This document shows, piece by piece, positions 1,771 through 27,647 of a stretch of 29,503 nucleotides of DNA (its first letter is position 1; every line of letters starts with the position of its first letter). The position numbers and the translations under genes are program-made. Below the pieces are notes generated by a model, which saw only the letters and a list, made by a program, of their open reading frames with translations, ran no database searches and was not told the origin of the DNA. This stretch comes from a virus: positions 1 to 29,503 of IMG/VR virus record IMGVR_UViG_3300017767_000077. One strand, 5' to 3'.

Positions 1771-2232
1771 ATGAAAGCAATTAATATAGATGGTACAATT
1801 AAAACCTATAATTCAATTCCTAAAACTTGGGGCAATATTTTAGGTGTACAATATTTAAATGATTCAAGTTTAGAAGAACTTGGTTTTTACGATGTAGTAA
1901 CACCTTCAACTAAACAAAGCCAAGAATTAGGCTCTATAGAATGGGATTCAAAAAATAAAGTTTTTACTTACCCTATTAAAAACAGAACTTATAGCCAAAC
2001 AGTAGCTGAACTTAAAACACAAAAAATAGAAAACCTAAAAAGTATTTATGGAAGTAAGTTAGGTAAAACTGATTGGTATATAGTAAGAGCGCAAGAAGGT
2101 ATAGCAGCACCACAAGACATTATAGATGCAAGAGCATCTTTAAGAACTGAATGTGCGAGTAAAGAAGCAGAAATAAATGCACTTTCAACAAAAAGTTCTA
2201 TTTTAGATTATCAACTTCCAAGTTTTATATAA
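1771..2232 (+). CDS. Tail fibre assembly/chaperone-like protein, putative
   Basis: A 153-residue protein. The C-terminal half (residues about 84-140) has the layout of phage tail fibre assembly proteins: a helical segment (VAELKTQKIENLKSIYGSKL), a TDWYIVRAQEG core with the TDW motif, then a long helix with RASLRTECASKEAEINAL. In that family a TDW motif followed by a helix with Arg-rich spacing is usual. Its stop overlaps the ATG of the next, fibre-like gene by one base, which fits a chaperone translated with its client. It could instead be a minor fibre protein itself. Confidence 0.5.
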   Translation: MKAINIDGTIKTYNSIPKTWGNILGVQYLNDSSLEELGFYDVVTPSTKQSQELGSIEWDSKNKVFTYPIKNRTYSQTVAELKTQKIENLKSIYGSKLGKTDWYIVRAQEGIAAPQDIIDARASLRTECASKEAEINALSTKSSILDYQLPSFI

Positions 2233-3260
2233 TGAGTTTAGGAAAAAAGAAAATGCTTTCTCAAGGTGGAGCAGGTGCATTAGTTCCATCAGATAATTTT
2301 AATACTGTTTTATGGACAGGAAATAATACAGCAAGAACTATTCCTGTAGGTTTTCAGCCTGACTTCGTGTGGATAAAATCAAGAAGTAATGGAAGAAACC
2401 ACAGACTTTTAGATAGTATAAGAGGGGCAACAAAAGTTTTAAGTTCTGATTCAACATCAAATGAATACAATGAAGATTCATTAACATCTTTTGACAGTAA
2501 TGGTTTTACGCTTGGTACAGGCGGTAATCAAAATAGATTAAATGAAACTTACGTTGGATGGTGTTGGTACGCTCCTACTTCAGAAACAAATAATGACGGC
2601 AGTGTTACAGCAACTATAAAAAAGAATGTAGATGCAGGATTTAGTATTGTGAAATTCACATCAAATGCATCAACAATTACTGTTGGTCACGGAATAAACA
2701 AACCTGATTTAATAATTTTAAAAGCAACAAGTTTTTCTGACTCTTGGTTTATAAATTGTGTAGGTTTAACAAATCAATCAGATAGAGCGATAAGATTTGG
2801 AATTAATGGGGAAGAAACAAGTAATGCTTTTTGGAATAATACAGCACCAACATCATCTGTTTTTTCTGTTGGTAATGGTGTTTCTGTTAGCGGTCAATCT
2901 TATATCGCCTACTGCTTTCATTCAGTAGCAGGTTATCAAAAGATAGGGTCTTATACAGGGAACGGAAATAATACAGGAACTGTTGTAGATACTGGATTTA
3001 CTCCTCGATTCGTAATGATTAAAGCAACTACAACTGATAATGGTGGTGGAAATTGGATTATATATGATAACGTAAGAAGTACATCAAACCCAAGAAATAA
3101 AAGATTGTATGCAGATTTAAATATTGCAGAGCAATCTATTTCAAATTATGATTTAGATTTTTTAACTGGAGCAACAAAAGGATTCCAACCTAAAATCGGC
3201 ACAAGTTCTTATGGATTTAATACACTTAATGTAGATTACATCTATTTAGCAATAGCATAA
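2232..3260 (+). CDS. Putative receptor-binding/tail fibre protein with three repeats (DUF7483-like)
   Basis: A 342-residue beta-rich protein. It contains three diverged copies of one unit, at about residues 27-112, 138-230 and 238-342. Each opens with a TGNN/TxNA-type strand, then G-x-x-PDhhhIK (GFQPDFVWIK, GINKPDLIILK, GFTPRFVMIK), and closes with a Y-hydrophobic strand (YVGWCWYA, YIAYCFHS, YIYLAIA). I recall this PDFVWIK...LLDSIRG pattern in marine phage fibre proteins annotated as DUF7483. A role in binding the host surface is likely. It is coupled upstream to a fibre-assembly-like gene and downstream to a small membrane gene by one-base overlaps. Confidence 0.65.
   Translation: MSLGKKKMLSQGGAGALVPSDNFNTVLWTGNNTARTIPVGFQPDFVWIKSRSNGRNHRLLDSIRGATKVLSSDSTSNEYNEDSLTSFDSNGFTLGTGGNQNRLNETYVGWCWYAPTSETNNDGSVTATIKKNVDAGFSIVKFTSNASTITVGHGINKPDLIILKATSFSDSWFINCVGLTNQSDRAIRFGINGEETSNAFWNNTAPTSSVFSVGNGVSVSGQSYIAYCFHSVAGYQKIGSYTGNGNNTGTVVDTGFTPRFVMIKATTTDNGGGNWIIYDNVRSTSNPRNKRLYADLNIAEQSISNYDLDFLTGATKGFQPKIGTSSYGFNTLNVDYIYLAIA
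2310..3257 (+). repeat. Threefold protein-level repeat inside the fibre gene
   Basis: Three diverged units, at about 2310-2567, 2643-2921 and 2943-3257. They share an opening strand, a G-x-x-P-[DR]-hydrophobic-IK core and a closing Tyr-rich strand. They are recognisable only at protein level; the DNA is not obviously repeated. Confidence 0.55.
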
Positions 3261-3403
3261 TGGAAGATATAAAGATTTATGGTTTAAATGCAGTTGCTTT
3301 AGCATTTTCAGTTAGTGCTATAAATCCTGTTCTACAAGCTATAAGTCTTTTACTTGCCATTGGATATACTGTAATATCAATAACACAAAAACTAAAGAAA
3401 TGA
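3260..3403 (+). CDS. Small membrane protein, holin-like
   Basis: A 47-residue protein starting in a TAATG overlap with the fibre gene and ending in an ATGA overlap with the next gene. After a short polar start (MEDIKIYG) it is almost wholly hydrophobic to about residue 41 (LNAVALAFSVSAINPVLQAI, then SLLLAIGYTVISI), broken by an N-P turn, and ends QKLKK. This gives two short transmembrane helices with a basic cytoplasmic tail. Size, topology and its place beside endolysin and holin genes suggest a role in lysis. No sequence family is recognised. Confidence 0.55.
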   Translation: MEDIKIYGLNAVALAFSVSAINPVLQAISLLLAIGYTVISITQKLKK

Positions 3404-3810
3404 CATTACCTAAAAACGGTGTTGCAAAAGAGATAAGAAGCTATTTAGGTAGCTTACTTATATTTTTCTTTATAGTAGGTATTATTATAACTTTTGTTCA
3501 ATATCCTGTTTTAGAATCTAACAAGGAAATCGTTTTAATGTTGATAGGGTCAATCTCGGCGAGCATTCCAATTCTCATAAATTCTATAAGCGGAACAAAG
3601 CCTGACGATATAAATGGACTAAAAGCAACAATAGAAAAAAAAGAACATCAAATACAAATGCTTGTAGATGCTAAAGATAGGTTAGAAGAAATGGTTATTG
3701 AATTGCAAAAAGAAATGTTACAAAACCAAGATAATATAATGGATAAAATTATTCTTAAAAGTGCATTGTTTTTTGATGACAAATTTAACCCACCAAAAGG
3801 AAAGCTATGA
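3400..3810 (+). CDS. Membrane protein with two TM segments and a coiled coil; lysis-associated, putative
   Basis: A 136-residue protein. Residues about 15-34 (YLGSLLIFFFIVGIIITFVQ) and 43-63 (EIVLMLIGSISASIPILINS) are transmembrane. Residues about 72-112 form a charged heptad region (LKATIEKKEHQIQMLVDAKD onward), a coiled coil. The two-TM plus coiled-coil plan could fit a holin-like or spanin-like protein that connects to the envelope. It overlaps both neighbours by four bases in a lysis cluster. Role inferred from layout; no family recognised. Confidence 0.5.
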   Translation: MTLPKNGVAKEIRSYLGSLLIFFFIVGIIITFVQYPVLESNKEIVLMLIGSISASIPILINSISGTKPDDINGLKATIEKKEHQIQMLVDAKDRLEEMVIELQKEMLQNQDNIMDKIILKSALFFDDKFNPPKGKL

Positions 3811-3884
3811 AAGAAGTAAAATGCAAGTGCGGATGCACAAATAACCCAGAAGGTTACTGCGATGGTAGCCACTTAAATAAATAA
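3807..3884 (+). CDS. 25-residue CDGSH-type iron-sulfur-like microprotein
   Basis: It starts in an ATGA overlap with the preceding membrane protein gene. After the start MKEV the peptide has K-C6-K-C8-G-C10-T-N-N-P-E-G-Y-C18-D-G-S-H22. The last five residues are the exact CDGSH signature, and the upstream C-x-C and T...P elements match the [2Fe-2S] CDGSH consensus, except that the second Cys and the CDGSH Cys are nine residues apart rather than the usual eight. An extra Cys (C10) is also present. The known fold uses three Cys and one His as cluster ligands. At 25 residues it is shorter than any CDGSH domain I know, so it would need to dimerise or bind a partner. An Fe-S or Zn role is inferred. 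Confidence 0.6.
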   Translation: MKEVKCKCGCTNNPEGYCDGSHLNK

Positions 3885-3886
3885 AT

Positions 3887-4066
3887 ATGCAAACTTTAAT
3901 AATTATAATTTCAATAGTAATGTTTTTAACAGCAGTAATGATGGCATTAACTGTTTATGGTTTATTTACAGATAAAGATAAGGATGGTATTCCTGATGCT
4001 TTAGAAGATAAATTTAACCAAGTAGTTAGTGATATAAAACAAGAAATTGAAAAGATTAAAAAATGA
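3887..4066 (+). CDS. Small single-TM protein with one calcium-binding (TSP3/EF-hand-like) loop
   Basis: A 59-residue protein. Residues about 4-27 (LIIIISIVMFLTAVMMALTV) form one transmembrane helix. It is followed by DKDKDGIPDALEDKF (residues 29-43), matching the D-x-D-x-D-G-x-x-D thrombospondin type 3/EF-hand loop common in Bacteroidetes surface proteins, and then a charged helical tail. The plan suggests a membrane-anchored helical protein with a single Ca2+ site. It overlaps the endolysin start by four bases, so it may act in lysis or its regulation. Function unknown. Confidence 0.55.
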   Translation: MQTLIIIISIVMFLTAVMMALTVYGLFTDKDKDGIPDALEDKFNQVVSDIKQEIEKIKK

Positions 4067-4413
4067 AATACTTTACGTTAGATGAATTTGATTCACCTGA
4101 TCACGAAGGTAGTGGTGTTAATATGGATAGTAACTTTCTTGAGTTGCTCAACAATGCACGTAAAATTGCAGGGATACCATTTAAAATTACAAGTGGATAC
4201 AGAACATTTGAACATAACAAAAAAGTTGGCGGTGTACAAAACTCATCACACCTCAACGGTCTTGCAGCCGACATTGCTGTTAGATCAGGAAATGAAAGAT
4301 ACATTATTCTTAATGCCCTTATTAAAGCAGGATTCAAACGGTTGGGAATCGCTAAAACCTTTATACATTGCGATACCGATACATCTAAATCTAATTCAGT
4401 CTGGACATACTAA
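4063..4413 (+). CDS. Endolysin, M15-family peptidase (D-Ala-D-Ala carboxypeptidase-like)
   Basis: A 116-residue protein spanning a complete Peptidase M15_3 domain. Seen motifs are ITSGYRTFEHN (42-52), SSHLNGLAADI (61-71) carrying the zinc ligands His63 and Asp70, and FIHCDTD (100-106) with the third ligand His102. This family cleaves peptide bonds in peptidoglycan stems. It has no signal peptide, so it needs a holin, encoded just downstream at 4505. The start overlaps the upstream TM gene (ATGA). An alternative plus-strand frame at 4082-4444 is a shadow. Confident in the domain; the lysis role follows from context. Confidence 0.88.
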   Translation: MKYFTLDEFDSPDHEGSGVNMDSNFLELLNNARKIAGIPFKITSGYRTFEHNKKVGGVQNSSHLNGLAADIAVRSGNERYIILNALIKAGFKRLGIAKTFIHCDTDTSKSNSVWTY

Positions 4414-4431: not shown

Positions 4432-4512
4432 ATGGAACAATTAATTTTTGGTTATGTTGTATTTCGTATGTTAGAATTTTTAATTATAAAAATATTCCAA
4501 AGTTTTGGCTGA
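4432..4512 (+). CDS. Very small hydrophobic peptide, hypothetical
   Basis: A 26-residue frame (MEQLIFGYVVFRMLEFLIIK and a short tail) between the endolysin and the holin; it overlaps the holin's TTG start by 8 bases. It is hydrophobic enough for one membrane helix. It could be a small lysis modulator or simply a leader that couples translation to the holin, whose TTG start is weak. Support is position and hydrophobicity only. Confidence 0.35.
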   Translation: MEQLIFGYVVFRMLEFLIIKIFQSFG

Positions 4513-4921
4513 AAAGAAAAAGTTTAAAGATACTGAAGTAGGCAAGTTTTTACTTAATAAGATACCTAATGTAGTTGGTGCAGTTGCAGGTAATACAGCA
4601 GTAGGAAGTGTTATACAAGCTATTATTGGTGGTTCAGATATGAGCGATGCTGATAAAGAAATAGCACTTAAAAAACTTGAAATAGAACGTGCCGAAATAG
4701 ATGGTACTACAAGAAGGTGGGTTGCTGATGCAAGAAGTGGTTCTTGGTTATCTTCTAATGTACGTCCATTAACCCTTGTATTTTTAACTATAAGCTATGT
4801 TATAGGATGGTATTTAGGTTATCCATTAGATAGTATTACAGGTTTACTTAGTATTGTAATTGGTGGCTACTTTGGTTCAAGAGGTGTAGAAAAAGTATTT
4901 GGCAACAATAAGCATCAATAA
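4505..4921 (+). CDS. Holin, 3-TM superfamily
   Basis: A 138-residue protein. An N-terminal hydrophobic Gly/Ala segment (about 20-43) is followed by a charged helical region (DADKEIALKKLEIERAEIDG), the conserved SGSWLSSNVRPLTLVFL motif, and two transmembrane helices (about 88-107 and 110-127). The RxxxS-WLS-x-NVRP signature followed by two TMs is characteristic of the 3TM holins first described for gene transfer agent release (PF11351, from memory). It should permeabilise the inner membrane and release the M15 endolysin encoded just upstream. The start is TTG at 4505, overlapping the preceding microprotein; no in-frame ATG is available near the N-terminus. Confidence 0.82.
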   Translation: MAEKKKFKDTEVGKFLLNKIPNVVGAVAGNTAVGSVIQAIIGGSDMSDADKEIALKKLEIERAEIDGTTRRWVADARSGSWLSSNVRPLTLVFLTISYVIGWYLGYPLDSITGLLSIVIGGYFGSRGVEKVFGNNKHQ

Positions 4922-9597: not shown

Positions 9598-9860
9598 ATA
9601 TTTTAGATGAAGCTAATAAAATAATTAACGAACGTTCACAAGAAAAGGAAAGACTATACGGCCCTTTTTCAAAAGGTATGGAACGTGCAGCTAAAATTGC
9701 ATCAGCTTGTACTGGTAAAGATTTAACAGCTAAAGATATGTATATGGCTATGGTAGCTCTAAAACTATCAAGAGAGTCTTATAATCATAAAGAAGATAAT
9801 TTACTAGATGCAGTAGCATATTTAGCTGCTTTAAATAATTACGAGAATGAGCGAAAATAG
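9594..9860 (+). CDS. DUF6378-like protein (nucleotide-metabolism-associated)
   Basis: An 88-residue helical protein. The pattern ILDEANKIINERSQEKERLYG, then GMERAAKIASACTG...TAKDMYMAMVALKLSRES and EDNLLDAVAYLAALNN, matches the DUF6378 family as I remember it (xxYGxxxxNFxRhAxhh...LKLARE...DNhhDhAGY). The family resembles all-alpha NTP pyrophosphohydrolase-type proteins, so a dNTP-pool role is possible but unproven. It overlaps the following SGNH-like gene by 14 bases, placing it at the head of the presumed modification cassette. Confidence 0.62.
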   Translation: MNILDEANKIINERSQEKERLYGPFSKGMERAAKIASACTGKDLTAKDMYMAMVALKLSRESYNHKEDNLLDAVAYLAALNNYENERK

Positions 9861-10758
9861 AGCTATAGTTGGAATTGTTAGCAACCCTGTTAAAAGTTTA
9901 AATAGTCATAATGGTGGTTGGACTCTCGTGTTAAAAAGTATGTTTGACGCTGATATATTAACAGAAAAGGATGATTGGAATAAGTACGATGAAATTATTT
10001 TATCTGAAGGTATAAACTACAAAGAAGGGAAGTTTAATTTTTTTGGTGGAGTGCAAGAAGGTTTTTATACTAGATTAGAAAAGTTAAATAATTACAACGG
10101 TAATGTTTTTTGTATTAATGAAATGATAGATTATAATGTTGTATGTAAAAAACGTAAAGAATTAAAAGGTTTATCATGTAATAAAATTCCTAAGATTATA
10201 TACACTAAAGACATATCATCAAAACTTATATTAGGCGATAGTCATAGTGTATCAGTATTTAAACATGGTTATGCTATAGATAGACATGATGGTAAAACAT
10301 TAAATGGTTTTTTAAAAATAGGTTTAAACAAATATTTAAATGATAATATAAAAGAGCTAATATTTTATGCAGGTAATATAGACATGAGATTTCATGTACA
10401 TCGTTTTGGTGGTAGAAAAGCAGTAGTTGATTTAATTAGAAAATTGTTTGAACAACTAGGAAAACTATATTTAGATAAAATAACTTTAGTTTGTTTATTA
10501 CCTATAGAAGATGAATCAAGAAAGATACCAGGTACGGGACTATATAAAGACAAACCATTTTTCGGTAGTCAATTAGATAGATTGTATTATGTAAACGAGT
10601 TTAATAAACTATTAAAAAGAGGTTGTTTGCATTATGGTTATAATTTAATAGAATGGGATTTAGATTATGAGAATGGTTTATCGTTTGATAATATGGAATC
10701 AAGACAATCTGTACATTTAAAACCAAAGTCATATAAATATATAGATCAGTTATGTTAG
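9847..10758 (+). CDS. SGNH-hydrolase-like protein in presumed base-modification cassette
   Basis: A 303-residue protein. Residues about 120-300 carry the blocks of an SGNH/GDSL enzyme: KLILGDSHSVSV (GDS at 130-132, Ser132 the likely nucleophile), IFYAGNIDMRFH (Gly176/Asn177, block III), and RQSVHLKP near the end (His290). The usual Asp three residues before the catalytic His is Gln here, so the catalytic pair may be incomplete. Residues 1-115 form a separate domain of unknown type (GIVSNPVKSLNSHNGGWTLV). SGNH enzymes hydrolyse or transfer ester-linked acyl or sugar groups. Co-translation with three putative DNA-modification genes suggests it decorates or trims a modified base; this is inference. 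Confidence 0.55.
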   Translation: MSENRAIVGIVSNPVKSLNSHNGGWTLVLKSMFDADILTEKDDWNKYDEIILSEGINYKEGKFNFFGGVQEGFYTRLEKLNNYNGNVFCINEMIDYNVVCKKRKELKGLSCNKIPKIIYTKDISSKLILGDSHSVSVFKHGYAIDRHDGKTLNGFLKIGLNKYLNDNIKELIFYAGNIDMRFHVHRFGGRKAVVDLIRKLFEQLGKLYLDKITLVCLLPIEDESRKIPGTGLYKDKPFFGSQLDRLYYVNEFNKLLKRGCLHYGYNLIEWDLDYENGLSFDNMESRQSVHLKPKSYKYIDQLC

Positions 10759-11645
10759 AGCAATTTAAAGATTACTATAATAAAGCTAAGATGAATCAAC
10801 AAAGATTATATCAAGGCTATAATTGGACAAAGGAAGATATTAATGATGATTTAATTTGGCATGTTCCTATATATGATGTCGTAAATAGAAAGTATGCAGC
10901 TTTTAGTAGTTTGTTAGAAGCAATAGATAAAAAGGAATTAGACCCTAAAGGAAATGGAAATTACTTTAAAGATCATAAAATAGACAAAGATAATTTTATT
11001 TACTTATCGTATTTATTTAGACTATGCGGATCAGGTATTAACTATAGACCAAAAGACCTTTTACCTTATGGTAGTCATGGATTTGGAAACTTTTGGATTG
11101 TACAAGAGCTAGTATTAAAAAGATACAATATTAATGATTGGTTTAAAAACTTGCCAGAAAAAGGTTTTTGTGATGTTAAAGGTTATTTACTACCTATGAT
11201 AAAAAAAGGATTAAGAAACTTTATATTAGAAGACTCTTTAAATTTAGTTGATGATATAATGAATGAAGCGCAACAAGGTGGCTATTCTATAACTGATGTA
11301 GTTGATTTAGGAAATCATTGGTTAAGATCAAGAGGCTTTAAAAGACAAAACTTTGTGTTGACTGCTTTTGCTATGGATTTAGCTGAGTATTATCCTGATC
11401 TTGTAGACCAAGACAGTGATGTATATGTAGGCTCTAACGCGTCTAAATGTTTAAAGATGATATTACCTAATATGAGAAAAAACGAAGCCTTACGCTATCT
11501 CTGTCAAATAACTGGAAATCATTCTAAGCCTTATGATATGGAAGATGTTGCTTGTGATTTTATTAGATATATAGATAATTTTCAAAGTGATCATCACATA
11601 AGAAAAAATAATAATATTAAATACTGGAATAATGTTCTTAAATAA
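10752..11645 (+). CDS. Putative amino acid:DNA transferase/aGPT-Pplase-like protein
   Basis: A 297-residue, mostly helical, soluble protein. Its conserved-looking core is LSYLFRLCGSGINYRPKD, then LLPYGSHGFGNFWIVQEL; later GGYSITDVVDLGNHWLRSRG and a DVYVGSNASKCLKMILPNM segment. The R-x-x-GSGxx...HGFGN pattern recalls the all-helical DNA-glycosylase-like families (amino acid:DNA transferase, alpha-glutamyl/putrescinyl thymine pyrophosphorylases) that attach amino acids or amines to phosphorylated 5-hydroxymethyl pyrimidines in phage DNA. This is a recollection, not an alignment. The neighbours, a PLP enzyme and a hydroxymethylase homologue, are the usual companions of those families. It overlaps both neighbours. 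Confidence 0.45.
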   Translation: MLEQFKDYYNKAKMNQQRLYQGYNWTKEDINDDLIWHVPIYDVVNRKYAAFSSLLEAIDKKELDPKGNGNYFKDHKIDKDNFIYLSYLFRLCGSGINYRPKDLLPYGSHGFGNFWIVQELVLKRYNINDWFKNLPEKGFCDVKGYLLPMIKKGLRNFILEDSLNLVDDIMNEAQQGGYSITDVVDLGNHWLRSRGFKRQNFVLTAFAMDLAEYYPDLVDQDSDVYVGSNASKCLKMILPNMRKNEALRYLCQITGNHSKPYDMEDVACDFIRYIDNFQSDHHIRKNNNIKYWNNVLK

Positions 11646-12522
11646 ACAGAGTACACAAGCTAATAATGATTTAAAAGATTATAGTCTTAACGATTATTTA
11701 GAACAAACTAAAAACTTTAAGTCATCTTTTAAAGAATTTGATGTAAAACAAGTATATGGATTTAATATAATTGATGAATCTGTATCTTGCGAGGTAGGTT
11801 ACAAAGCAAGAAGCGGTGAGTACTTTATACAATATATTGCTAATCAAGGTGTTAAAGAAATAGTTTATGTACAACCAAGAAGAGGTTTTGCTGGTATTTC
11901 TCTTTCATGGTTATGTAAAAAGTATAATTTAAATTTAACTTTAGTAATGCCATCTTCAAAAGAAATAAGTGATCACCAAGCTTTGTGTATAGAGCTAGGA
12001 GCTAAGCCGTTGTTTGCTAGAATAGCAGCCATGCCTAATGCTAACTCTTTAGCAAAAAAATATGCTAAAGCAACTAACTCTTATTATGTACCTTTAGGTT
12101 TAAATCATCCTTTAGTAATTGCCGGTGGAGTAAGATGTGTTTATGATTATTTTAAAAATAGAGTTAAACCAAATACTATTTGGTCAGTTATATCTACTGG
12201 TGTTTTAACAAGGACTTTACAGATAGCTTTACCTGATACTAAATTTAGAGCAGTTGCAGTAGCTAGAAATATACAACAAGGAGAATTAGGTAGATCTGAT
12301 TTTTATTCTTATCACAAACCATTTAATTCTAAGTCTGATTTAATTCCTTTAGGTTTTAATAGTGAAGATTCATACGATGCAAAAGGTTGGGATTATATGG
12401 TTAAACATGGTAAAAAAGGTGATTGGTTTTTTAATGTAGCAGGAAACGCTAATAAACCAACAATAGATAAAAAGACTATAAACTCTTATAGAGATTGGAA
12501 TGATTTGAAAGATTTTTTATAA
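11632..12522 (+). CDS. Fold-type II PLP-dependent enzyme (tryptophan synthase beta-like)
   Basis: A 296-residue protein with the layout of cysteine synthase/threonine synthase-type PLP enzymes. EVGYKARSGEYFIQYIANQG (54-73) would hold the Schiff-base Lys58 (GYKxRSG, like GSFKxRG). Next come EIVYVQPRRGFAGISLSW in the position of the SSGNhG loop, LTLVMPSSKEISDHQALCIE with ELGAKPLFAR, and WSVISTGVLTRTLQ where the glycine-rich phosphate loop is expected. The loop Asn that touches the PLP ring is Phe here, and the glycine loop is reduced. It may act on an amino acid attached to DNA, as PLP enzymes do in some thymidine-hypermodifying phages, or on a free amino acid. Confidence 0.65.
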   Translation: MFLNKQSTQANNDLKDYSLNDYLEQTKNFKSSFKEFDVKQVYGFNIIDESVSCEVGYKARSGEYFIQYIANQGVKEIVYVQPRRGFAGISLSWLCKKYNLNLTLVMPSSKEISDHQALCIELGAKPLFARIAAMPNANSLAKKYAKATNSYYVPLGLNHPLVIAGGVRCVYDYFKNRVKPNTIWSVISTGVLTRTLQIALPDTKFRAVAVARNIQQGELGRSDFYSYHKPFNSKSDLIPLGFNSEDSYDAKGWDYMVKHGKKGDWFFNVAGNANKPTIDKKTINSYRDWNDLKDFL

Positions 12523-12532
12523 ATTTGTTAAT

Positions 12533-13189
12533 ATGATATTTAAAAATGCAGAACAAGCGTTTCATTATTTGTATAGTGAAATACATAGAACAGGGATAGA
12601 TCATGGTAATACTAAAGCATTGTTTAATATAGGTTTTTATATTGCTAACCCTTTAGATAATAATATTAATTTAGATTTTAGAAAACTAAATAAAAAATAT
12701 GCTGAAGCAGAATGGCAATGGTATTTATCAGGTGATAGGAATGTTAATAAGTTAGGAGAAATATATGGTAAAATTCCTGAAATATGGAAAAATATGGCAG
12801 ATGAAAATAATGAAGTTAATTCTAATTACGGATGGCAGTGGTTGCAGAACTCTCAATTAGATAGAGTAATAGATAAATTACATGCTAATAGAGAAACCAG
12901 ACAAGCAACCATTTCTATCTATGATGGTAAGCAGATAGATAGATATTCTAATGATACACCTTGTACTTATGCTATTACTTTTAATATAGTAAAAGATGAA
13001 TTACACATGTCAGTATTGATGCGTAGTAATGATTTATGGTTTGGATTTTGTAATGACCAATATTGTTTCAGTAAGTTACAAGAATTAGTATCTAAAGAAA
13101 TTGATGTTAAAATTGGTACATATTATCATCATGCTACTAATTTACATGTATATAATAATTTTTTAAATAAATACTATGAGACTAAATAA
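12533..13189 (+). CDS. Thymidylate synthase-family dNMP hydroxymethylase
   Basis: A 218-residue protein with thymidylate synthase blocks: YAEAEWQWYLSGD (Glu60), NYGWQW (98-103), an ETRQATISIYD strand, DTPCTYAITF with the catalytic Cys144, RSNDLWFGFCND (164-175), and HHATNLHVYNN (His205, Tyr207 for the sugar). Aligned on RS-x-D-xxx-G, Asp175 falls where thymidylate synthase has the Asn that selects dUMP (E. coli Asn177). T4 dCMP hydroxymethylase also has Asp there. It is therefore likely to make 5-hydroxymethyl-dCMP (or less likely dTMP or hm-dUMP), the precursor for the modification cassette. It lacks the longer N- and C-terminal parts of cellular enzymes. Confidence 0.75.
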   Translation: MIFKNAEQAFHYLYSEIHRTGIDHGNTKALFNIGFYIANPLDNNINLDFRKLNKKYAEAEWQWYLSGDRNVNKLGEIYGKIPEIWKNMADENNEVNSNYGWQWLQNSQLDRVIDKLHANRETRQATISIYDGKQIDRYSNDTPCTYAITFNIVKDELHMSVLMRSNDLWFGFCNDQYCFSKLQELVSKEIDVKIGTYYHHATNLHVYNNFLNKYYETK

Positions 13190-13478
13190 TGAATTTGAGC
13201 CTATTAGAGAATGGGCTGATGAAAGAGGTATATATGAAAAAGGAGACCCTAAGACACAATACCTTAAATTAATGGAAGAGGCTGGCGAATTATCACAAGC
13301 AATACTTAATAAAGATAAGATTGAAATAGAAGATGCTATAGGAGATATGGTAATTGTATTAACTAACTTAGCTAGATTATGTAATTTAAGTATTGAAACT
13401 TGTATAGAATCAGTTTATTTTGAAATAAAAAACCGTAAAGGTGAAATGAAAAATGGAACATTTGTAAAAAATAAATAA
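13176..13478 (+). CDS. MazG-like nucleoside triphosphate pyrophosphohydrolase
   Basis: A 100-residue protein spanning a single MazG domain. It has the metal-binding motif LMEEAGELSQAI (32-43: Glu34, Glu35, Glu38) and IEDAIGDMVIVL (51-62: Asp53, Asp57). MazG enzymes hydrolyse (d)NTPs to monophosphates and pyrophosphate. Directly after a dNMP hydroxymethylase homologue, it could remove the unmodified dNTP to favour the modified one, as dCTPases do in T4; it could also lower (p)ppGpp or house-clean. It overlaps both neighbours. Confidence 0.82.
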   Translation: MRLNNEFEPIREWADERGIYEKGDPKTQYLKLMEEAGELSQAILNKDKIEIEDAIGDMVIVLTNLARLCNLSIETCIESVYFEIKNRKGEMKNGTFVKNK

Positions 13479-14518: not shown

Positions 14519-14723
14519 GATAAAAGAAGAATACTATATGCTTGCTTTAGTTGACTTGTCTAATGGATCTACTGTTAATGAATTATATGAGGCAATTAAA
14601 GTATATGAAGATTTAGAAGAATATGAAGCATGCGCAGGTATATTAGAAGCTGTAAAACAAAGTGAATACTTAACATTAAGAGATATAAAAAATATATTAA
14701 AAAATGAAAATAAAAAAAATTAA
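14511..14723 (+). CDS. Small acidic helical protein, hypothetical
   Basis: A 70-residue protein. The TTG at 14511 overlaps the exonuclease end and keeps the helical start (SRIKEEYYMLALVDL); an ATG at 14538 is the alternative. It is acidic and helical (AIKVYEDLEEYEACAGILEA). It overlaps the next gene by 20 bases. I recall small proteins of this make-up near replication genes in flavobacterial phages, without an assigned role. Confidence 0.5.
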   Translation: MSRIKEEYYMLALVDLSNGSTVNELYEAIKVYEDLEEYEACAGILEAVKQSEYLTLRDIKNILKNENKKN

Positions 14724-15105
14724 AGAATTAGTAGAAAATAATACTAATATAAATTTAGTAACTAAAAATAGAAGAAGAGAAGTCGTATATGCTAGATCTA
14801 TATACTATAAACTATGTAAAGAACATACAAGAGAATCTTTAAGCGTAATAGGTAAATCAGTAAAACGAGATCATGCTACAGTACTACATGGTATTAAAGT
14901 ATTCGATCAACAAATAAGTGTTTATAAAGATGCTATTGAATATCACAAAGTATTTGAAAGGATAGATAATATTATAAGAAGAGCAGATAGTACAAGAGAA
15001 AAAGATAGAAACCCTGGTGTATATTATAGGAACAAATACGCTATAGCTTTAGTAGAGCTTAGAAGCCTTAGGCAAGAAAAACGACGGTTACTACTTAACA
15101 ACTAA
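14704..15105 (+). CDS. DnaA domain IV-like DNA-binding protein
   Basis: A 133-residue protein. Residues about 21-65 match the DnaA C-terminal (domain IV) HTH: KNRRREVVYARSIYYKLCKE, then LSVIGKSVKRDHATVLHGI, including the DnaA-box-reading signature RDHATVLHG (55-63). No AAA+ domain is present. The rest is a basic helical tail. It could bind DnaA boxes in the phage or host origin and so steer or block replication initiation. It precedes the terminase genes by a 42-base gap. Confidence 0.8.
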   Translation: MKIKKIKELVENNTNINLVTKNRRREVVYARSIYYKLCKEHTRESLSVIGKSVKRDHATVLHGIKVFDQQISVYKDAIEYHKVFERIDNIIRRADSTREKDRNPGVYYRNKYAIALVELRSLRQEKRRLLLNN

Positions 15106-26381: not shown

Positions 26382-27284
26382 ATGGACATAGTAGAACTTT
26401 TTATAGATGAAAATGATGAGGTTTCTGGAATAGAAGCAATATCAGTAGTAGAAAACCCAGCAATAGAAGAAAACTTTATAGCATTAAAAAACCAAGAGTT
26501 TAAACTTGCAGAGGTAGACAAAGAAAAGCGTATCCTTATGGGTGCTGCTTTAATACCTAACAAACCTATTTACAGACAAAGTGGTGAGCAGGAGTATTAT
26601 ATATATTTTAGTCAAGCAACTGTAAGAAAAGCAAGTGAATTATTCTTTATAAAAGGTAATCAAAACAATTCAACATTAGAACACCAATTAGAACTCAAAG
26701 GTTTAACTGCTGTAGAAAGTTGGATAGTAGAAAGTGAACAAGATAAAAGCAGAATGTACGATTTAAATGTGCCTATTGGTACTTGGATGGTATCTATGAA
26801 AGTAAACAACGATGATGTTTGGAAAAAAGTAAAAGCAGGTGAGGTAAAAGGCTTTAGTATAGAAGGTTACTTTGCTGACAAATTAGAAAGACCAAATGAA
26901 CCTGTAAAAGATAAAATGAGTAAAGAAGAAATAGCTGAAGCTAAAATAGAAGAACTAAAACAATTATTTAGTACTGAAAAAGTAGATTTAGCTATAAACA
27001 ATGAATTAAAATTAAATGCTGAACAATTACAAACTAAATTAAATAAAGCAGTAGCTGATTATAAAAAAGGATTAAAACAAGTTAGAATAACAGCAGCAAA
27101 CACCTTAAAAAGATCTGAAAAACAATTTTTCGTATTAGCTAAAGAATTTAAAAATTATTCACGAAAAGCTAAAGAATTAGGAGTAAAAAAAGCAGAAAAA
27201 GAATTTAATAGATTATACAAAATTTGTGATAAATACTATTTAGATGCAGGTTTATATGCAGAAGCAGCAGAAAAATTTAATTAA
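26382..27284 (+). CDS. XkdF-like prohead serine protease with C-terminal helical domain
   Basis: A 300-residue protein. The N-terminal about 170 residues are the XkdF-like/S78-type protease: KRILMGAALIPNKPIYRQ, YYIYFSQATVRKASELFF, NQNNSTLEHQ (His101), VESWIVESEQDKS, GTWMVSMKVNNDDVW and VKAGEVKGFSIEGYF with the nucleophile Ser159. It would cleave scaffold and capsid proteins during head maturation. Residues about 179-300 are a separate helical domain opening FSTEKVDLAIN that is repeated in the two free-standing genes at 27685 and 28046, perhaps a scaffold-like part. Confidence 0.88.
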   Translation: MDIVELFIDENDEVSGIEAISVVENPAIEENFIALKNQEFKLAEVDKEKRILMGAALIPNKPIYRQSGEQEYYIYFSQATVRKASELFFIKGNQNNSTLEHQLELKGLTAVESWIVESEQDKSRMYDLNVPIGTWMVSMKVNNDDVWKKVKAGEVKGFSIEGYFADKLERPNEPVKDKMSKEEIAEAKIEELKQLFSTEKVDLAINNELKLNAEQLQTKLNKAVADYKKGLKQVRITAANTLKRSEKQFFVLAKEFKNYSRKAKELGVKKAEKEFNRLYKICDKYYLDAGLYAEAAEKFN

Positions 27285-27647
27285 ATGAGTAGAATACCAA
27301 GTCCACAATCAGGTCGTAGAGGTTGCTTATGTAAAAATGGTACATATTCTATAGAATGTTGTGATGGTAGTTTTGAAGCACAAGGAGTAGGAAATGTTAC
27401 AGGAATAATAGAAACACCAAGTGCAGGAGAATACGGTTATAGGGTACAAAAATGTGGACATAGCCAAAAAAAACACTTTTACGGTTCTACACAATTAGTA
27501 ATAGGCAATGTATATTATATAAATGCAGACCACGATAACCACGATGGTTGTTATACCGTATTAAGCCAAGACCAAACTGCACACGGTCATCATTTTAGTG
27601 CTGTAACATTATATAACGATTGTGCAGCGTGTCAAGCAGCAAACTAA
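27285..27647 (+). CDS. Cys/His-rich conserved phage protein, unknown function
   Basis: A 120-residue protein, directly after the protease stop (0-base gap). The start MSRIPSPQSGRRGCLCKNGT, then YSIECCDGSFEAQGVGN, is a conserved opening I know from flavobacterial phage head modules. Further Cys/His clusters follow (KCGHSQKKHF, HDNHDGC, HGHHF, CAACQ). The nine Cys and many His suggest zinc binding or disulfides in the virion. Role unknown, probably structural by position. Confidence 0.6.
   Translation: MSRIPSPQSGRRGCLCKNGTYSIECCDGSFEAQGVGNVTGIIETPSAGEYGYRVQKCGHSQKKHFYGSTQLVIGNVYYINADHDNHDGCYTVLSQDQTAHGHHFSAVTLYNDCAACQAAN

Follow-up and report, generated by a model that had tools for sequence, protein, structure and literature searches.

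The window analysed here, the whole 29,503-base stretch of an IMG/VR virus record from a marine phage, contains on its plus strand a 25-codon reading frame that is a genuine gene under purifying selection. We read it, with a probability of roughly 0.55, as the gene of a metal-binding microprotein, a phage member of a widespread micro-CDGSH family whose proteins amount to the CDGSH loop and some charged residues; the gene would be mobile and derived from bacterial hosts, and its product would act late in infection as a redox or iron–sulfur accessory. The family itself is widespread in phages and bacteria and poorly annotated, and the micro-gene is neither restricted to lysis nor unique.

The micro-gene and its neighbourhood

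The frame at 3807-3884 (plus strand) begins with ATG, ends with TAA and encodes the 25-residue product MKEVKCKCGCTNNPEGYCDGSHLNK. The first-pass annotation had described a 25-residue CDGSH-type frame, in translational coupling with membrane proteins and immediately ahead of an endolysin, and the description holds on both counts: the frame is present with an exact CDGSH, the TGA of the gene at 3400-3810 overlaps the micro-gene start in an ATGA, and an M15-type endolysin lies at 4063-4413. The features of the region are as follows.

3260..3403, plus strand: 47-aa hydrophobic protein, likely with one or two membrane helices (ORF; hydrophobicity by eye)
3400..3810, plus strand: 136-aa membrane protein with a coiled-coil-like tail by eye (ORF directly upstream of the micro-gene)
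3795..3804, plus strand: AAAAGGAAAG, purine-rich Shine-Dalgarno-like stretch just 5' of the ATG (sequence; presumed role)
3807..3884, plus strand: micro-CDGSH gene, 25 aa (ORF, conservation and pN/pS; putative ligands Cys6, Cys8, Cys18 and His22)
3887..4066, plus strand: 59-aa product with a single membrane helix at its N terminus by eye (phrog_27828, a weak match at 1.9e-05)
4063..4413, plus strand: M15-type peptidase endolysin (PF08291, 9.3e-17; phrog_894 endolysin, 2.5e-30)
4505..4921, plus strand: holin-like protein (phrog_3427 holin, 9.2e-13)

Searches of Pfam and PHROGs gave no match for the 47-aa protein and no significant family for the 136-aa membrane protein, and the holin-like protein matched GTA_holin_3TM at only 0.0025, below the Pfam cut-off. 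The stretch AAAAGGAAAG, or one nearly identical to it, precedes the ATG in many relatives. Just 5' of the lysis region, at 2232-3260, lies the gene of a 342-aa protein with DUF7483 (4.7e-87). Elsewhere in the window, positions 9847-13478 hold genes for a PLP-dependent enzyme (PF00291; threonine dehydratase in PHROGs), a thymidylate synthase-like protein (PF00303) and a MazG-type protein, along with two genes that have no Pfam match, a cluster that we presume may be a modified-thymine DNA pathway; positions 14704-15105 encode a phage DnaA C-terminal-type HTH protein (PF08299, 8.9e-15).

Conservation and purifying selection

Relatives of the locus were retrieved by means of the endolysin, a bait that makes the choice of loci independent of the motif; this gave 254 stretches with 240 relatives, of which the best 80 were kept. 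Across these best 80 loci and the window, the micro-gene is present in 40 and cleanly missing in 31, and in the other 10 the upstream region is cut off, one of them, L024, retaining the tail end of the motif frame. The 40 copies comprise 23 distinct 75-base sequences, all selected by a motif that names the invariant residues, and in all 23 of them Cys6, Cys8, Gly9, Thr11, Gly16, Cys18, Asp19 and His22 are identical at the protein level while their codons vary through TGC/TGT, CAC/CAT and GAT/GAC exchanges. Gly20 is nearly invariant (Ser replaces it in L006 and L007); Pro14 varies. The pN/pS ratio over the 23 distinct copies is 0.226 for the core, 0.334 for all 25 codons and 0.83 for the flanks. 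Conservation of Cys6, Cys8, Cys18 and His22 with a bias towards synonymous change had been set beforehand as the test on which the proposal of a CDGSH-type protein should stand or fall, and the proposal passes it, with 23 of 23 copies invariant and the low core ratio.

As a check on the motif-based selection, the 31 negative loci were scanned with a score that is blind to the Cys, Asp and His columns. No decayed or ligand-less copy was found in these 31 loci, where the best segments scored 4-6 of 12; six positive controls each reached 12 of 12. The way in which the copies had been selected was thus not hiding a ligand-less relative. A chance reading frame is ruled out by the occurrence of the micro-gene in 39 of the 80 endolysin-retrieved loci, excluding the window, together with the synonymous changes at the codons of the invariant residues.

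Among the 40 copies, an upstream stop could be assigned in 38, and in every one of these the upstream gene runs 1-11 nt into the micro-gene, 23 of them with an ATGA. Aligned DNA from the window, L002 and L004 on the one hand and L017, L026 and L032 on the other reveals a clean, gene-sized insertion or loss between similar flanks, and the absence of the micro-gene from 31 otherwise similar loci shows that it is dispensable. A small, dispensable gene of variable position might be thought a hitch-hiking insertion without a function of its own, its frame preserved merely by coupling to its neighbours. The strong purifying selection at the ligand codons, the lack of decayed copies and the recurrence of the gene in unrelated contexts and phyla make such an origin barely credible.

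A family of short proteins with an extended loop

From Cys8 to Cys18 the window peptide measures 10 residues against 9 in the CDGSH consensus, in agreement with the earlier remark that its loop is one residue longer, and we refer to this form as the +1 loop. A DNA search with the pattern C-x-C-G-x-[ST]-x4-G-x-C-D-G-[ST]-H placed it in at least 119 stretches of viral contigs and at least 120 of genome contigs; the matches listed were translated as 118 viral loci and as 120 genome loci with 132 motifs. The frames are mostly short. Among the matches listed, viral and genomic together, there are 162 distinct single-loop proteins of 21-33 aa, with length counted from the Met closest to the motif. 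At position 10, 107 of these 162 have Asn and 21 have Cys, the remaining anchor columns being invariant by construction of the pattern, and this ratio indicates that the fourth cysteine of the window peptide marks a subclade. That cysteine, to which the first-pass annotation had drawn attention, is indeed present in the window peptide but is not conserved across the relatives, occurring in 18 of the 23 distinct lysis-locus copies and in 21 of the 162 distinct short proteins among the matches listed. It is a subclade trait, and as a conserved ligand it is ruled out by these same counts.

The bacteria among the matches listed belong for the most part to the marine Flavobacteriia and other Bacteroidota (Polaribacter, Cryomorphaceae and single-cell genomes), together with Paenibacillus, Brevibacillus, Opitutae and a few others, and from these relatives we infer that the window's own host is probably a marine flavobacterium. 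In a set of 299 genomes of the Flavobacteriaceae, the family of Polaribacter glomeratus, the +1 pattern was found in 15 and a reversed control pattern in none; 8 of the 15 positive genomes also encode a zf-CDGSH domain that exceeds the cut-off in a profile search. The chromosomal micro-CDGSH proteins (L200-L319; Flavobacteriia, Paenibacillaceae and the Opitutae tandems) share the +1 loop and the size of the window peptide and differ from it in mostly having Asn in place of the extra Cys; those of the Flavobacteriia mostly follow a YceI gene, and the Opitutae forms carry two loops per chain. Tandem +1 loops occur in 11 distinct small proteins (L254, L256, L228, L253, L269, L273, L284, L297, L301, L312 and L216), assigned to Opitutae or other Verrucomicrobiota where titles are given.

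Short proteins with the canonical spacing are also found in viral contigs, in at least 120 stretches with 121 motifs. Of the 117 listed frames that have a Met ahead of the motif, 12 do not exceed 35 aa, 80 span 36-80 aa and 25 are longer. The canonical DNA pattern is a narrow probe, since it matched 1 of the 15 Flavobacteriaceae genomes above as against 8 of 15 for the zf-CDGSH profile. Like the window peptide, the canonical viral proteins of 24-60 aa (L320 onward) are stand-alone, short and dominated by the loop; unlike it, they have the exact consensus spacing and a Pro before Phi-C. Two of only 24 aa, L330 and L380, reach 32.7 and 30.0 bits against a zf-CDGSH cut-off of 29.5. IMG/VR contigs can contain host DNA, and three canonical matches (L345, L346 and L371) have the look of the usual tandem CDGSH proteins of cells and may come from a host. 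With at least 119 viral stretches of the +1 form, at least 120 of the canonical form and chromosomal versions in bacteria, the view that a stand-alone phage version is unusual finds no support.

Likeness to CDGSH proteins

The CDGSH consensus is PhiCXCXX(S/T)XXXPPhiCDG(S/T/A)H in the excerpted text of Lin 2011 (PMC3174974), according to which the solved CISD types have in common a beta-sandwich, a proline motif and a strand at the N terminus; in the excerpts of Sengupta et al. 2018 (PMC5859297), Bacteroidetes, viruses and Paenibacillus go without mention. The ligand set C-x-C ... C-x3-H is present in all 23 distinct lysis-locus copies. With CISD/NEET proteins (PF09360 zf-CDGSH; types 3, 4 and 6) the window peptide shares CxC...CDGSH, its set of three Cys and a single His, a Ser or Thr at C+5 and, in most members, a hydrophobic residue before CDGSH. 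It differs from them in its +1 loop and in its displaced Pro, with Gly in place before Phi-C and Lys, which is not hydrophobic, before Cys6, and also in its size, 25 aa as against 54-87 residues in the matched CISD chains of the PDB. There are only five residues before Cys6 and three after His22, and the N-terminal strand, the lid-proline motif GP-Phi-x-Phi and the beta-sandwich are all missing. Searches of Pfam, PHROGs and NCBIfam gave no match for the window peptide, and the best +1 relative tested against zf-CDGSH, L113, scored 20.6 bits (E 5.5e-4) where the gathering score is 29.5 bits. Because of the longer loop and the missing lid-proline and beta-sandwich, we describe the window peptide on sequence grounds as CDGSH-like, not as a proven CISD member.

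In comparison with known structures, 3tbm, 3tbn and 3tbo lie closest to the profile and the model. A profile built from 68 micro-proteins and searched against 177,635 PDB sequences gave 3tbm (E 0.075) and 3tbn (E 0.11) as its best matches, the alignment covering the loop with a single gap. The AlphaFold2 model of the 31-residue stop-to-stop frame, made from 68 rows, has a pLDDT of 72.9, and Foldseek of this model against 350,542 PDB chains returned two matches only, the CDGSH proteins 3tbo (type 3) and 3tbm (type 4), at 1.3 and 1.2 Å rmsd over 20 columns and with E values of 3.5 and 3.8, which give them no significance on their own. A VIA-align search with the model found nothing at Z 2 or more, AlphaFold2 may simply be recalling CDGSH loops, and an Opitutae tandem relative was modelled at a pLDDT of 53.7.

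Zinc binding is frequent in 25-residue Cys/His peptides, and the length and ligand pattern of the window peptide fit a zinc knuckle. With neither a cluster-shielding beta-sandwich nor a lid-proline in its 25 residues, and with a loop one residue beyond the [2Fe-2S] consensus, it could be a structural microprotein that coordinates Zn2+ through Cys3His and has protein or nucleic acid as its binding partner, its resemblance to CDGSH proteins being confined to ligand spacing. The zinc families in Pfam gave no profile match for the window peptide, the sequence of which is compatible with a Cys3His Zn2+ site. The invariant Asp19 and Thr11 and the near-invariant Gly20, however, match the CDGSH loop beyond the ligands, the canonical 24-aa viral proteins exceed the zf-CDGSH cut-off, and CDGSH proteins provide the two best matches of the profile and the only two of the model; we therefore regard a purely structural zinc protein as a minority possibility, though one to be taken seriously. 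The product is more likely a small metal protein in which a [2Fe-2S] cluster would come ahead of zinc, a preference that we draw from Asp19, Gly20 and Thr11, which follow the CDGSH loop, and from the zf-CDGSH scores of the 24-aa canonical relatives.

Genomic context in phages and hosts

In assessing the viral context, a motif was counted as belonging to the lysis region if one or more of four gene families lay no further than 1.2 kb from it. Among the 118 viral loci listed, the M15 endolysin is near the motif in 42, the holin-like gene in 46 and the basic 46-aa gene in 12; the fourth family, that of the 136-aa membrane gene, occurs in 37 of the 118, in 34 of these no more than 700 bp from the motif. 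Altogether at least 80 of the 118 listed loci are near lysis-region families, a lower bound as L100 was scored 'other' through an ORF-calling artefact, while in 7 the motif is fused to more than 150 aa and in 31 it lies elsewhere. The initial placement in a lysis cluster holds for the window; across the family the tie to lysis is one of position, covers these 80 or more loci and does not extend to the others, where the motif sits elsewhere or is fused to an XkdF-type protein.

The fused form is found at the C terminus of XkdF-type (Peptidase_S78_2), head protease-like proteins in at least eight loci (L105, L122, L127, L128, L131, L134, L182 and L187), counted from the translated loci because the XkdF cluster of ORFs is contaminated by any motif-bearing ORF; the one example checked, from L105, matches PF14550 at 1.7e-12. 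These phage proteins have the same +1 loop, here at the protein end, and differ from the window gene in that the loop is fused to a larger head protein and does not stand alone. A tblastn search of phages with an XkdF query found 10 records, none of which reaches the CDGSH tail: the alignments end at query residue 121-124 of 157 in eight records and at 138 in two Methanothermobacter records. The window's own XkdF (26382-27284) is without a CDGSH loop. Directly after it, at 27285-27647, a 120-aa protein (start MSRIPSPQSGRRGCLCKNGTYSIECCDGSFEAQG) carries a C-x-C-x8-C-C-D-G-S motif without the His, where other phages have the XkdF-fused CDGSH loop; this protein has no Pfam match over the cut-off and no PHROG, and the placement of its motif is possibly a coincidence.

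In further phages, L148 and L151, the motif and the groEL gene that follows it (phrog_5725, 1.4e-130 for L151) are 67 nt apart, and a thioredoxin-like family is found within 600 nt in 6 of the 118 viral loci listed (L102, L125, L132, L141, L161 and L188; PF00085, 4.5e-6, in L188, the one example checked). In bacteria, 57 of the 120 genome loci listed have, upstream, a YceI gene whose stop codon is separated from the first Cys codon by 23-84 nt, and YceI occurs anywhere in the locus in 62 of them. FMN-reductase genes are found in 16, MarR-type genes in 19 and HxlR-type genes in 10 of the same 120, one example of each of these families and of YceI having been confirmed by Pfam. The host neighbours YceI, flavin reductase and MarR/HxlR, and the thioredoxin-like genes of some phages, point to a role in redox or iron metabolism. 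The ligands of YceI proteins are lipids or isoprenoids, and it has been suggested that iron is carried by phage particles.

The strict overlap with the upstream gene, and a position within 1.2 kb of lysis-region families in at least 80 of 118 viral loci, 42 of them near the M15 endolysin, would be expected if the product were a true lysis protein, a timer that responds to redox state or metal and works through the adjoining small membrane proteins or the holin. The gene is missing, however, from 31 of the 71 loci of this endolysin family that can be evaluated (80 and the window less the 10 that are cut off), and its position varies: in L065 it sits 3' of a 51-aa membrane gene, other phages carry it before groEL or fused to XkdF, and hosts carry it after YceI. 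It has no membrane segment by eye, and nothing in it corresponds to the membrane segment or lipobox, or to the constant place in the cassette, that distinguishes a holin, antiholin or spanin. We consider a lysis timer improbable, and a lysis-specific function was set aside as the main reading in view of the 31 absences among 71 loci, the varied contexts and the precise gain or loss.

Proposed role of the microprotein

We tentatively propose the following account of how the redox or iron–sulfur accessory favoured above might work. Cys6, Cys8, Cys18 and His22 would hold a [2Fe-2S] cluster, with Zn2+ as the alternative, and as one loop is too short to shield a cluster alone, the cluster would probably be held in a dimer or against a partner. 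To judge from the gene neighbourhoods, the phage may have acquired the gene from its hosts. Translation would be late, from the lysis-region transcript, and the product, in this account no lysis protein, would serve as an electron relay, a cluster donor or a buffer of ROS or iron that maintains the fitness of the infected cell up to the point of lysis. A direct role in lysis is disfavoured by the 31 evaluable cassettes, out of 71, without the gene and by the other positions in which it occurs.

In a bolder and rather unlikely version, the loop-only CDGSH proteins of about 24-30 residues would be true [2Fe-2S] proteins by way of a dimer or partner, repeatedly acquired by marine phages from the YceI/FMN-reductase redox neighbourhood of Flavobacteriia and placed in late operons and on the XkdF head protease for late redox or iron control. 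To our knowledge, such loop-only proteins would be the smallest [2Fe-2S] proteins.

Significance

Family libraries miss such micro-genes. The members tested have no meaningful NCBIfam or PHROG match, and the +1 form falls below the Pfam cut-off. A tblastn search of phages with the window peptide gave no match, a negative that the low-complexity filter of BLAST may weaken, as it may other tblastn negatives, and the same search with relatives gave no convincing isolate record, the one weak match (E 0.03) being to an unannotated faecal phage record; among plasmids there was one weak match (E 0.9), not genuine by its annotation. Within the open-licence PMC literature we found no paper on a phage-coded CDGSH microprotein, none that joins CDGSH to YceI or to auxiliary metabolic genes, and none that joins YceI, Flavobacteria and MarR.

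If the peptides do hold a cluster, they would show how little protein a natural [2Fe-2S] site needs and would offer a simple system for CDGSH chemistry. They would also enlarge the pool of genes common to marine phages and Flavobacteriia with an iron or redox cargo.
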